A DNA stretch of 62,760 bases from Gemmatimonadota bacterium. Lineage in GTDB: Bacteria > Gemmatimonadota > Gemmatimonadetes > Longimicrobiales > Gaopeijiaceae. A model generated the notes under the pieces. The model searched no databases. It was not told the origin of the DNA and was given only the letters and a program-made list of their open reading frames with translations. Location of the stretch: positions 1-62,760 of the forward strand of contig VXMI01000064.1 in assembly GCA_009841165.1 (NCBI GenBank), given 5' to 3'. The position numbers and the translations under genes are program-made. The first letter of the stretch is position 1. Each line of letters starts with the position of its first letter. Shown here piece after piece: positions 38,004-41,572 of the stretch.

Positions 38004-38822
38004 TTAGACGCGCGGTCCCGGTCTCGCCAAGAGCCTGGCGCTCAGTTCCACGTAGTCCTGCGGCGAGAGGCGTTCCGGCCGGAGCGACGGCGACAGGCCC
38101 CTCGCCCCCAGCGCCTCCTCGACGGCGGCCGCGGTGCACCGCAGCTCCGGGTGGCGCCGCAGTATCGTCCCCATCTGCTTGCGCCGCCACGAGAAGGCCG
38201 CGCGCGTGAGGATCCGGACGCGTTCGGCTTCCTCGGCAGTGAGGCGCGACGGGGACAGCGGAGTGATCCTGATCGCCACGGACTCGACCCTGGGCACTGG
38301 CCGGAAAGCCTGGCGCGGCACCTTGCACACTCTCGTCGCCCGCGCGTGAACCGCCACTCCCACCGAGAGCGCGCCGTACGTCTTCGTCCCGGGTCCGGCC
38401 ATGATCCGCGCCGCGACCTCGGCCTGCACCGTGAGGACGATGTCGGCGGGGTACGGCAGCCGGAGCAGACGGAAGATGATCGGCGTGGTGATGTTGTACG
38501 GGATGTTGCCCGCGACGTGGGTGCGGCCCCAGTCGGCCGTGAGGGCGGCGAGATCGGCCGCAAGAATGTCGCCGTGGACGATCTTGACCTGCGGATGGTG
38601 CTCGTAGCGCGCGGCCAGTGCGGCCGCCAGTTCGTCGTCCAGCTCCACGGCCGTGACCACGGCGCCGGACTCCGCCAGGTGGCGGGTGAGCGCTCCCTGG
38701 CCCGGCCCGATCTCCAGCACCGGCTCACCCGGCACTGCCCCCACGGCTGCCGCGATCTTGCGCTGCAGGTTGGGGTCGACGAGGAAGTTCTGCCCGAGCG
38801 ACCGTTTGGCCCGCCGTCTCAT
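38004..38822 (-). CDS. rsmA: 16S rRNA (adenine1518-N6/adenine1519-N6)-dimethyltransferase
   Basis: Dimethylates the two adenines of helix 45 of 16S rRNA with S-adenosylmethionine. The 272-residue product has SLGQNFLVDPN at the start, the SAM motif EIGPGQGALTRHL (about 37-49), the catalytic NIPYNITTPI (about 103-112) and the C-terminal helical domain. ATG at 38822 overlaps the phosphatase stop by 4 bases (ATGA). Its stop is 9 bases before rex, so the promoter of rex, if separate, must lie inside this gene. Confidence 0.97.
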   Translation of the reverse strand: MRRRAKRSLGQNFLVDPNLQRKIAAAVGAVPGEPVLEIGPGQGALTRHLAESGAVVTAVELDDELAAALAARYEHHPQVKIVHGDILAADLAALTADWGRTHVAGNIPYNITTPIIFRLLRLPYPADIVLTVQAEVAARIMAGPGTKTYGALSVGVAVHARATRVCKVPRQAFRPVPRVESVAIRITPLSPSRLTAEEAERVRILTRAAFSWRRKQMGTILRRHPELRCTAAAVEEALGARGLSPSLRPERLSPQDYVELSARLLARPGPRV

Positions 38823-40171
38823 GACGTGCGCAGAATGACCGCCGTCCGGTCGTCGGCGGGGATCGACGGTACGGCGTCGCGCGACATTTCGAAGAGGGTG
38901 TCGAGGATCTCGGACACCGGGCGGTGGCGGTTCGCGGCCACCGTGTCGAGCACCCGTTCCTCGCCCGTGCTGCGGCGGGACCGGGCCAGGGTATCGGAGA
39001 GGCCGTCGGTGAAGAGTAGCAGCAGATCCTCGCCCGGACGCCACCGCAGGTTCGACTCGCCGTAGGGCGTGGGGCCGATGCCCATCGGGGGGTCCGTGGC
39101 GAACAGCCGACGCGGCGTGCCGTCCGCCTGCACCACGAACGCGTGCGGATGTCCCGTGTTCGAATACGCGATTCCGGACCGCCCGGGCGCCAGCACGCAG
39201 TAGCAGAGCGAGAGGTACATCTCGGTGGACTCGAGTTCGTCGCCGATCGCCCGGTTCAGGTACTCGAGCACCGCTGCCGGCGCCCTGCCCTCCTCGGCGT
39301 AGATCGTGGCAGCGCTCATCACGAGGGCCATGATCAGCGCGGCGGGGAAGCCGTGTCCCGAGACATCGCCGATCATCACTCCCACCCTGCCCCCCGAGAG
39401 CTGGATCACCTGGTAGAAGTCGCCGCCGACGGACGCCGCCGGGACCACGCGGGCAGCGGCCTCCACCCCCTTCATGCGCGGAATGGGAGGCAGGAGCTTC
39501 AACTGAAGGTCGTGGGCCAGCTGCATCTCCCGGGTAGCGTGTTCGCGCGCCATTTCCTCGCGCATGCGCCGGTTGGCCTCCAGCGCCGCCTCCAGATCGG
39601 CGCGGGTCGTCTCGGCCTGCCGGGCCAGCTCCGCCGATCGCGCGATCGTGGCGGCGAGAATTCTGGTGACGTCGTCGTCATCGTGTCCCGGCAGCCTGAT
39701 ATCGTGCCGCGCGGCGCCGGCAGCACGCGCGTCCTCACCGGTCGGTGCCGGCGTATCGGCGCCCCGGTCCCCCCCGCCCGGATCGCGGAGGACCAGGGTG
39801 ACTGAGTTCCCCTCGGGGTTGAAGTGCACCTCATCCATCAGGGCGCGCATCAGAAAGACCCCGCGGCCGTCGGGCCGCAGCAGGTTCGCCGGCAGGCGCG
39901 GATCGGGCACGCGATCGGGGTCGAAACCGCGGCCCTGGTCGGAGACGGACGCCCGCACCTCTCCGGGCCGGACACGGAGTTCGACCCGAACGCGGCCTCC
40001 GGGTTGGTTGCGGTTGCCGTACAGCATGGCGTTCGAGAGCGCCTCGGTCAGCCCGACGCGAAAGTTGAACAGCAGCAGCCGCCGGTCCAGCCGCGCGTGC
40101 GCGCAACACGCGACCGCGTGGTCGACCGCCCTCTCGATGGCACCGATGTCGTTGGGGAGTTCGAAAATCAC
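38819..40171 (-). CDS. HATPase (RsbW/SpoIIAB-like) plus PP2C (RsbU/SpoIIE-like) switch protein
   Basis: A 450-residue protein with two opposed activities in one chain. Residues about 5-130 form a GHKL kinase domain of the anti-sigma type with an intact N-box (EALSNAM, E43/N47) and ATP-lid motifs SDQGRGFDP (about 77-85) and DGRGVFLM (about 101-108). Residues about 160-215 are a coiled coil. Residues about 225-450 form a SpoIIE/PP2C phosphatase with SVGGDFYQV, GDVSGHG and the closing DDRTAVIL. The gene for a STAS protein, the expected substrate, lies 76 bases upstream in transcription. The kinase would phosphorylate and the phosphatase dephosphorylate such a partner. No sigma factor is nearby. 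Confidence 0.92.
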   Translation of the reverse strand: MIFELPNDIGAIERAVDHAVACCAHARLDRRLLLFNFRVGLTEALSNAMLYGNRNQPGGRVRVELRVRPGEVRASVSDQGRGFDPDRVPDPRLPANLLRPDGRGVFLMRALMDEVHFNPEGNSVTLVLRDPGGGDRGADTPAPTGEDARAAGAARHDIRLPGHDDDDVTRILAATIARSAELARQAETTRADLEAALEANRRMREEMAREHATREMQLAHDLQLKLLPPIPRMKGVEAAARVVPAASVGGDFYQVIQLSGGRVGVMIGDVSGHGFPAALIMALVMSAATIYAEEGRAPAAVLEYLNRAIGDELESTEMYLSLCYCVLAPGRSGIAYSNTGHPHAFVVQADGTPRRLFATDPPMGIGPTPYGESNLRWRPGEDLLLLFTDGLSDTLARSRRSTGEERVLDTVAANRHRPVSEILDTLFEMSRDAVPSIPADDRTAVILRTS

Positions 40172-40247
40172 TCCCGGGGGGGCGTCGGGTCCCGCCGGCG
40201 GGGGATCGGCCGGCCGGCCGGACTCCCGCGCAGGTTGCCGCGGTTCC

Positions 40248-40577
40248 CTAATCGGACAGTGCCTGCTCGAGGGAATCGCGGATCTCGAAGAGGGTGTGGA
40301 GCTTGGTGAGTTCGAAGAGCCTCTGCAGCTCCTCGCTCAGCGAGGCAAGCCGAAGCTCGCCTCCGAGTTCGCGCACCCGCTTGGAGAGGCTGATCAGAAT
40401 GCCGAGGCCGGACGAGTCGATGTACCCGGTGCGTGCGAAGTCGATGACAAAACGGCGCGCCCCGCCTTCCAGCTCCTCGAGCACAAGCCGTTTCAGCTCG
40501 TGGCGGTTGCCCACGATGAGCTGTCCGTCGACGTCGACGACCGTGGCGTTTCCGACTATTCGCGCCTTGAATGACAT
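40248..40577 (-). CDS. STAS-domain anti-sigma-factor antagonist
   Basis: A single STAS domain of 109 residues, of the SpoIIAA/RsbV class. The phosphorylatable serine is expected at Ser56 in GYIDSSGLGIL (about 51-61), matching Ser58 of SpoIIAA. ATG at 40577 has GAGG only 3 bases upstream; an in-frame ATG at 40586 is the other choice. It precedes the HATPase/PP2C gene, so both parts of a partner switch are encoded together. The protein it would free (a sigma factor or other target) is not in the window. Confidence 0.92.
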   Translation of the reverse strand: MSFKARIVGNATVVDVDGQLIVGNRHELKRLVLEELEGGARRFVIDFARTGYIDSSGLGILISLSKRVRELGGELRLASLSEELQRLFELTKLHTLFEIRDSLEQALSD

Positions 40578-40696: not shown

Positions 40697-41572
40697 TCAG
40701 CCGGGCTTGGACGCCATGAGCGCGGTGATCGCAGCCACCAGGACGATGTCCGAGGAGGAGGCTCCCCGCGATAGGTCGTTGACCGGGGCCCTGAGCCCCT
40801 GGAGGATGGGTCCCAGGGCCACCGCCCCCGCGAGCCGCTGCACCAGCTTGTAGGCGATGTTGGCGGCGTCGAGGTTCGGAAAGACGAGGATGTTGGCGCC
40901 CCCGCCCACCACCGAATCCGGCGCCTTGACACGCGCGATCTCCGGCACGAGCGCCGCATCTGCCTGCAGCTCACCGTCCGCGGTAACGTCCGGGTGCCAT
41001 GCGCGGAAGCGCTCCACGGCCTCCCTGACCGCTTCGACCGAACGTCCCCCGGCGCTCCCCAGGGTGGAGTAGGAGAGGAAGGCCACGCGGGGTTCGTCGC
41101 CGATCACCTGGCGCCGCAGGCGCACGGCCTCGGCCGCGATCTCCGCGAGGCGGCGGGGGCCGGGCCGGGGGACAACGGCCGGGTCGGTGAAGGTCAGCAC
41201 CTCGGCGCCGGAGCCGCGGAATGCGGGGACCTCCATGAAGAAGGACGAGGACAGGGTGCGCACGCCGTCCCGCAGGCCCACGTCGCCGAGCGCGGTACGG
41301 ATGACGCGCGCGGTCGTGTGCACCGCGCCGGCCACGACACCATCCACCCGGCCCGTGCACAGCATCGCCGCCGCCCTTTGCAGGGTGCTGCCCGCGGTGT
41401 CGGCGCCGCCCTGTTCTCCTCCCTCCCCCTCCCTCAGGAGAACGGGACGGACCACCGACCTCCGCGCGAGGATCGCCGCCGCCTCCACAACCCGCGGGTC
41501 GTCTCCCTCGGGGAAGGCGATCGTGCGGCCCAGCGGCCCGGCTCGCTCCAGAAGCCGGTCGGCGAAGGTCAT
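40697..41572 (-). CDS. pta: phosphate acetyltransferase/butyryltransferase family protein, short form
   Basis: Probably interconverts acyl-CoA and acyl phosphate. The 291-residue product has most family blocks: FPEGDDPRVVEAA, GRVDGVVAGAVHTTARVIRTAL, SSSFFMEVPAF, EPRVAFLSYSTLGSAGG, PDSVVGGGANILVFPNLDAANIAYKLVQRL and ALGPILQGL. Compared with usual enzymes of about 325 residues it lacks roughly 40 in the region between PVLLRE (about 43) and LQRAAAML (about 65), where the helix with the YELRK-type motif should be. It may still be active, or be a diverged member. ATG at 41572 overlaps coaD. Confidence 0.8.
   Translation of the reverse strand: MTFADRLLERAGPLGRTIAFPEGDDPRVVEAAAILARRSVVRPVLLREGEGGEQGGADTAGSTLQRAAAMLCTGRVDGVVAGAVHTTARVIRTALGDVGLRDGVRTLSSSFFMEVPAFRGSGAEVLTFTDPAVVPRPGPRRLAEIAAEAVRLRRQVIGDEPRVAFLSYSTLGSAGGRSVEAVREAVERFRAWHPDVTADGELQADAALVPEIARVKAPDSVVGGGANILVFPNLDAANIAYKLVQRLAGAVALGPILQGLRAPVNDLSRGASSSDIVLVAAITALMASKPG

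Follow-up and report, generated by a model that had tools for sequence, protein, structure and literature searches.

A probable sensor-less kinase-phosphatase fusion of an old partner switch in Gemmatimonadota, with a STAS protein as its likely output

In Vibrio fischeri, SypE consists of an N-terminal kinase, a central REC domain and a C-terminal PP2C phosphatase and acts on Ser56 of SypA; SypA stands downstream, acts without SypE and has a target given as unknown (PMC10120452). The chromosomes of V. vulnificus and V. parahaemolyticus keep SypA orthologues, with sypE missing (PMC4517449), and HsbR/HsbA and CrsR/CrsA are each described as a bifunctional kinase/phosphatase with a separate STAS partner (PMC6482189). 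Here we describe a pair of genes of similar make-up in a Gemmatimonadota bacterium. They lie in the window, by which we mean the whole analysed stretch of 62,760 nucleotides (nt) of contig VXMI01000064.1 (assembly GCA_009841165.1), and encode a 450-residue protein, in which an RsbW/SpoIIAB-type HATPase is joined to a SpoIIE/RsbU-type PP2C phosphatase, and a STAS protein. We put the probability that the pair forms a two-gene, SypE/SypA-like phospho-switch of Gemmatimonadota, with the whole mechanism set out below, at roughly 0.5. We read the module as a form of an old switch found across the phylum in which kinase and phosphatase are fused and no sensor is left, probably with the STAS protein as its output. 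The initial annotation held that the whole switch is reduced to two genes. The two-gene make-up stands and its being unusual does not, given SypE/SypA, HsbR/HsbA and CrsR/CrsA (PMC10120452, PMC6482189). Kinase-phosphatase/STAS pairs of two genes are already known; what is unusual here is the evolutionary history of the module.

Judged by description, the pair resembles SypE/SypA in having the kinase at the N-terminus and the PP2C domain at the C-terminus of one chain, a separate single-domain STAS protein and a serine at position 56. As with SypA, the STAS protein persists in relatives without kinase and phosphatase (PMC4517449). Unlike SypE, which works in a two-component relay and belongs to the syp locus, the fused protein has no REC, PAS or GAF domain, and its gene lies in a housekeeping cluster. 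Because no REC domain was found, the fused protein is not filed as a SypE, though it would work most like it. CrsR/CrsA of Shewanella and HsbR/HsbA of Pseudomonas share with our pair that the target is not encoded alongside (theirs are RpoS, FlgM and HsbD; PMC6482189), but CrsR and HsbR are response regulators with the order REC-PP2C-kinase that receive their signal by phosphotransfer, whereas in the fused protein the kinase comes first and REC is missing. Rv1364c of Mycobacterium tuberculosis likewise has PP2C and an RsbW-type kinase in one chain and is the top structural match, but its order is PAS-PP2C-kinase-STAS, with STAS in the same chain, and its target is SigF (PMC9138534). In Streptomyces, one example (WP_327129437.1) of what is named 'ATP-binding SpoIIE family protein phosphatase' also joins SpoIIE and HATPase_c_2, but in the order GAF-SpoIIE-HATPase and with the sensor kept. 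The RsbU/RsbW/RsbV/RsbT and SpoIIE/SpoIIAB/SpoIIAA systems of Bacillus subtilis share the domain chemistry and the long helix before PP2C but consist of separate proteins with sensor or stressosome input. The sigma genes of the B. subtilis partner switches are linked.

The domain assignments of the fused protein and of the STAS protein are practically certain. Pfam matched HATPase_c_2 (E 9.1e-25, residues 6-127) and SpoIIE (E 5.8e-40, residues 260-449) in the former and STAS (E 1e-21) in the latter, all above the curated cut-offs, and NCBIfam placed the STAS protein in TIGR00377 (ant_ant_sig), again above cut-off. The NCBIfam RsbW and SpoIIAB models matched the kinase part far below their cut-offs. 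Pfam found no REC domain in the fused protein, and the linker between its two domains is predicted to consist of a tether and one helix. Residues were compared in an alignment of 47 rows, made of 46 loci and the window; L011, L021, L049, L050 and L051 of the 51 loci were left out, each being without one of the two domains in the available DNA. HATPase residues E43, N47, D78, G80, G82, G102, R103 and G104 were invariant in all 47 rows, so that the ATP site, called intact in the initial annotation, is predicted to be so. PP2C residues D251 and D269 were found in 47/47 rows, D389 in 46/46 and D440/D441 in 42/42 of those with a letter at the position, and D54-S55-S56-G57 of the STAS protein in 46/46 loci. 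The E..N and D-x-G-x-G motifs of the HATPase align with SpoIIAB (1th8), and the DSSG stretch of the STAS protein aligns with SpoIIAA. The three general parts of an Rsb/SpoIIA-type partner switch are present, namely HATPase_c_2 with ATP-site motifs, STAS with an acceptor serine and PP2C with metal aspartates, and the feature is real, far beyond chance. The ratio of nonsynonymous to synonymous substitution rates (dN/dS) against L001-L004 was 0.16-0.18 for the HATPase, 0.085-0.17 for PP2C and 0.05-0.31 for the linker. The low values for the HATPase and PP2C indicate that both parts are kept by selection. From these sequence features we infer that the HATPase would bind ATP and phosphorylate the STAS protein.

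In the AlphaFold2 model of the fused protein (70-row alignment, mean predicted local distance difference test score, pLDDT, 82.4), the HATPase is followed by residues whose pLDDT is under 50 (133-164), a long helix (165-226) and a PP2C fold. Foldseek gave the PP2C-kinase part of Rv1364c (PDB 3ke6, E 5e-15) as its best PDB match, followed by RssB. SenB (PDB 9qih) was the best sequence match of the HATPase, and a search on the identity of SenB listed nothing relevant.

The initial annotation's claim that HATPase and PP2C share one protein is borne out by Pfam and by the residue alignment, and among the aligned loci this arrangement is in the minority. Kinase and phosphatase are separate open reading frames (ORFs) in 32 of the 47 aligned loci, making three genes with STAS, and form one fused ORF in the other 15 (window, L001-L010, L012, L013, L014 and L017). 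In 44 of 46 separate loci, a number made up of two sets that share some organisms, a start codon for PP2C lies across the stop of the HATPase, the two frames sharing 4 nt (NTGA); the exceptions are L034, where the PP2C frame is broken, and L096. Since the reading frames overlap, kinase and PP2C were probably translationally coupled before they were fused. The best 30 loci of the phylum search comprised 15 fused, 14 separate and 1 cut, and the window's own genus holds both kinds. In a 40-taxon tree, made from 57 rows less 17 that were near-duplicates or too distant, a 13-member fused clade had an ultrafast bootstrap (UFBoot) support of 70; L012, fused and with a GAF domain, fell among the separate forms (60), and L014 fell outside. 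An earlier FastTree analysis supported the fused clade at 0.41. The approximately unbiased (AU) test, run with 5000 resamplings, which the program flagged as too few, did not reject one clade of all fused forms (p 0.069) or of all but L014 (p 0.53); the RELL (resampling estimated log-likelihood) bootstrap and the expected likelihood weights (ELW) do exclude the former. It is possible that there were one to three fusions. An annotation or frame artefact was considered as the source of the fusion and ruled out: the ORF is open in the window, in its near relatives L001 and L002 and in other metagenome-assembled genomes (MAGs) of the clade, with purifying selection on both parts.

All 32 separate phosphatases carry a region matching the GAF domain of L012, and this region is missing in 14 of the 15 fused loci, L012 being the only fused one to keep it. 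Pfam agrees, with GAF found in L012 and in six scanned separate PP2C proteins of the module and none in L005 or L014. The scan also took in a further SpoIIE protein, the REC-PP2C of L053, which belongs to the second switch described below. L016, a separate phosphatase, was modelled with a mean pLDDT of 82.0; in it, a small alpha/beta region is followed by a helix (79-126), GAF, a second helix (251-298) and PP2C. In seven fused sequences (window, L001, L003, L005, L006, L013 and L017) the first long helix joins the second directly and at the same point. The window and its nearest relatives have also lost most of the first, pre-GAF region, and some 30-40 residues are left between HATPase and PP2C in L007, L010 and L085. 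The helices of L014 are joined at a different point from those of the window's clade; because this joint differs, two or more separate losses of the GAF domain are probable, all of them in fused genes. We consider fusion together with GAF loss highly probable. The fusion is derived and came with sensor loss; most of the sampled phylum has separate, overlapping genes with a GAF sensor. Residues 1-78 of the L016 phosphatase form an unnamed, sensor-like alpha/beta region before GAF that is confidently predicted, and Pfam found no family in the region between HATPase and GAF of four sequences.

The cluster order recJ-rsmD-coaD-pta-STAS-kinase-PP2C-ksgA is conserved in Gemmatimonadota. ksgA lies directly downstream in 41/41 loci whose DNA reaches far enough and pta upstream in 41/44, the exceptions being L032-L034, where coaD is next; pta is 1.2 kb away in L007 and 2.4 kb away in L014. 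Ten loci among the more distant ones have rex in inverted orientation. Gemmatimonadota MAGs, some of which bear the label Longimicrobiales, are the closest relatives with a name. Some match to the fused protein was found in 363 of 395 genomes of the phylum, which is an upper bound for the module, as the count takes in any match, including other SpoIIE/HATPase proteins such as that of the second switch described below. A tblastn search of plasmids gave 318 records, and in none of them did a single place cover 80% of the query. The module appears to have been inherited vertically over a long time. In open-licence papers of PubMed Central, a text search on partner switching in this phylum brought up five, and none of them names Gemmatimonadota.

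To see what stands at this site where the enzyme pair is missing, ksgA was sought in 20 genomes without the pair; it gave 16 clear loci, and G234 was added as a 17th site. In some of the 48 genomes searched, the contig stops within the module (STAS is terminal in G055 and G309, and G118 and G243 have part of the module), and only the 17 sites were counted. STAS alone is kept at 12 of these (G138, L100-L109 and G234), STAS with the HATPase at one (L112), and none of the three genes at four. The STAS gene of G234 is 56 nt from ksgA, with nothing between. The 12 STAS-only genomes span five genera (g1, g8, g11, g13 and g119) in two families, and G133 carries all three genes of the module although it shares its genus with G131, where STAS stands alone. 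No SpoIIE domain occurs anywhere in nine of the 12, and eight have only weak HATPase_c_2 matches and no strong RsbW-like HATPase; in these counts, 12 genomes that gave no match were numbered by way of the gaps in the list of the phylum search. The dN/dS of STAS was 0.09-0.22 over ten pairs within the STAS-only genus g8 and 0.29 for one pair of g11. The converse, a kinase locus with no STAS beside it, was seen in 1 of 47 rows. The STAS protein is read as the output because an antagonist of the HATPase would be idle without a HATPase, yet STAS persists. On this reading STAS would stand at the end of the switch, like SypA, and the fused protein would determine whether STAS is phosphorylated. The hint in the initial annotation that the target may be something other than a sigma factor gains support from these genomes.

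In G138 (L149, G138:C121:71500-76000) STAS and ksgA are separated by some 1.7 kb of other DNA, which replaces kinase and phosphatase. At L112 (G035), where STAS and HATPase are kept and PP2C is missing, the one SpoIIE match of the genome is on another contig.

In the mechanism that we propose, the fused form would have arisen from three co-transcribed genes, with a 4-nt overlap of the frames for kinase and phosphatase already in place, and fusion would have fixed the ratio of the two enzymes. The GAF domain that once fed the phosphatase would have been cut out between its flanking helices, which then became a single unbroken helix ahead of PP2C. A signal may now enter through the HATPase, as nucleotide level or as a bound protein, or through the remaining helix. 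The N-terminal HATPase would phosphorylate STAS Ser56 with ATP, and the C-terminal PP2C would remove the phosphate. STAS, in one of its two states, would then bind a target encoded elsewhere, this direction being suggested by the STAS-only genomes.

Several observations weigh against this reading. Both the kinase activity and the phosphosite are predictions from sequence. A kinase locus has no adjacent STAS in one of the 47 rows (L006), and STAS is absent along with the enzymes at the four sites mentioned above. Ten of the 12 STAS-only genomes still have a serine at the acceptor position 56, an odd finding where no kinase remains; to account for it one would have to suppose some other kinase or a structural part played by this residue. 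The retained STAS could be a slow relic or serve another HATPase: the three STAS-only genomes that belong to the window's genus also carry a system of the kind on contig C29, and G181 has another HATPase. The best whole-protein structural match, Rv1364c, regulates a sigma factor. As to L006 itself, the contig is short and unrelated DNA stands upstream of the fused gene in the place of STAS (L006:1-2400), through a rearrangement or an assembly join. In the two remaining STAS-only genomes the acceptor serine is replaced by Glu (L100, G192) and by Phe (L104, G109), as if fixed in one state.

In a canonical switch the HATPase would be an anti-sigma factor. It would sequester a sigma factor encoded elsewhere, for instance one of three short RpoD/RpoS-like ones, which unphosphorylated STAS would set free; such an arrangement is possible, if somewhat unlikely. 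The HATPase resembles RsbW/SpoIIAB, and the STAS protein is of the ant_ant_sig class. CrsR/CrsA are also two genes with an unlinked sigma factor (PMC6482189), and Chlamydia RsbW binds the primary sigma factor, sigma66 (PMC4552016). The genome has 19 Sigma70_r2 matches, none of them on the window's contig (C183), which agrees with the initial annotation that no sigma factor is encoded nearby. The argument that a sigma target is thereby excluded was rejected, RpoS being an unlinked target of CrsR (PMC6482189). The three best of the five matches to the SigB/SigF/SigG model given below are RpoD/RpoS-like, and they stay below the cut-offs of the RpoD and RpoS models too. Against the canonical arrangement stand the 12 genomes that keep STAS without the HATPase, where an antagonist would be idle, and the search for a SigB/SigF/SigG-type factor, which gave five TIGR02980 matches, none over the cut-off (best 122.7 vs 234.35 bits). 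The comparison with Rsb-type systems proposed in the initial annotation holds for kinase, STAS and PP2C and fails for a cognate sigma factor of this type. At least three RpoD/RpoS-like matches occur in 22 of 24 genomes, G109 and G121 (genus g11, both STAS-only) having two. The other STAS-only genomes keep such factors, and kinase loss is in most cases not mirrored by sigma loss; the case for a co-loss of sigma factors with the enzymes is weak.

The same genome carries a second switch (G000:C29; L053; L097:5856-7871), in which the HATPase and STAS genes are divergent from a gene for a REC-PP2C protein. The genome's two SpoIIE matches are this gene and the window gene. The second STAS protein has SSAG at the acceptor site, vs DSSG in the window.

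The SypE/SypA-like reading can be carried further. The kinase may have replaced the sensor, with the HATPase, through ATP/ADP or its STAS cargo, gating the attached phosphatase in cis. The result would be a self-contained, sensor-free, bistable, energy-reading switch whose output, the STAS protein itself, acts on a new target other than a sigma factor, one that goes back to the ancestor of Gemmatimonadota and can outlast kinase and phosphatase. We regard this full version as unlikely. It is quite unlikely, too, that the protein is in essence RsbT and RsbU in one chain, the HATPase being mainly an allosteric activator of its own PP2C, with ATP binding or STAS occupancy altering dimerisation, acting through the helix and replacing GAF. 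RsbT is a HATPase of the same superfamily. It activates RsbU through the RsbU linker, which becomes ordered as a coiled coil and so brings about dimerisation of the PP2C domains (PMC12143880), and the HATPase of the window is joined to what is modelled as the same kind of helix. GAF is absent in 14/15 fused and 0/32 separate forms, and the excision points of L014 and the window's clade differ. Yet the model, which is of one chain only, places the probably disordered tether (133-164) between HATPase and helix, and the helix is only moderately hydrophobic in its heptads, with a best value of 0.53 for the a/d positions. Little of the helix is left in L007, L010 and L085, and, the loci sharing ancestry, the association of fusion with GAF absence amounts to about two losses. 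A decaying or constitutive relic, a sensorless protein in a futile cycle or one fixed state heading to loss of both enzymes, would fit the loss of GAF and of most of the second sensor-like region and the STAS-only relatives in the same genus, but is very improbable with all catalytic residues kept and purifying selection on both domains across the fused clade.

The positions of the features are given in Table 1. As the initial annotation stated, the STAS gene is adjacent to the fused gene, which it directly precedes with a gap of 76 nt. The genes are transcribed from the minus strand in an order that we take to be recJ, rsmD, coaD, pta-like, STAS, fused gene, ksgA/rsmA, rex, exonuclease and thiolase; neighbour gene names come from reading translated ORFs, without a family search. 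The stop codon of the fused gene overlaps the start of ksgA by 4 nt (window:38819-38822), and because of this overlap ksgA may be translationally coupled to the switch. A scan for promoters and terminators found no promoter and one terminator-like site (1.2 expected), inside the gene.

Table 1. Location of the switch genes, their domains and the flanking genes in the window.
Feature	Position	Strand	Evidence
Fused HATPase-linker-PP2C protein, 450 aa, GTG start	38819..40171 incl. stop	(-)	ORF, Pfam, AlphaFold2 model
HATPase_c_2 (RsbW/SpoIIAB-type kinase) domain, residues 6-127	39791..40156	(-)	Pfam, genome scan, ATP-site residues in 47/47 rows
Tether, residues 133-164, low confidence, probably disordered	39680..39775	(-)	pLDDT <50
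Single 62-residue helix, residues 165-226, at the place of the relatives' helix-GAF-helix	39494..39679	(-)	Model, junction sequences, model of GAF-bearing relative
PP2C (SpoIIE/RsbU-type) phosphatase domain, residues 236-449	38825..39466	(-)	Pfam (260-449), model, Foldseek, metal-site aspartates
STAS protein, 109 aa, ATG start, anti-sigma-factor-antagonist type	40248..40577	(-)	Pfam STAS, TIGR00377
Codon of STAS Ser56, predicted phosphoserine	40410..40412	(-)	SpoIIAA alignment; Ser in 46/46 enzyme-pair loci
ksgA/rsmA-like gene directly downstream; context, outside the switch	38004..38822	(-)	Downstream of PP2C in 41/41 loci reaching that far
pta-like gene upstream; context	40697..41572	(-)	Upstream in 41/44 STAS-bearing loci reaching that far

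Partner switches are usually read as controls of sigma factors. The loci described here form a natural series at one fixed chromosomal site: three genes with GAF, fused with GAF, fused without GAF, and STAS alone. This series lets one ask what a partner switch needs in the way of a sensor, of stoichiometry and of the protein that bears the output. The STAS-only genomes are a sharp comparative argument for STAS having a target of its own, a question that also arises for SypA. If it is true that the fused HATPase gates its own phosphatase, the protein would be a minimal model for the control of PP2C phosphatases by regulatory domains.

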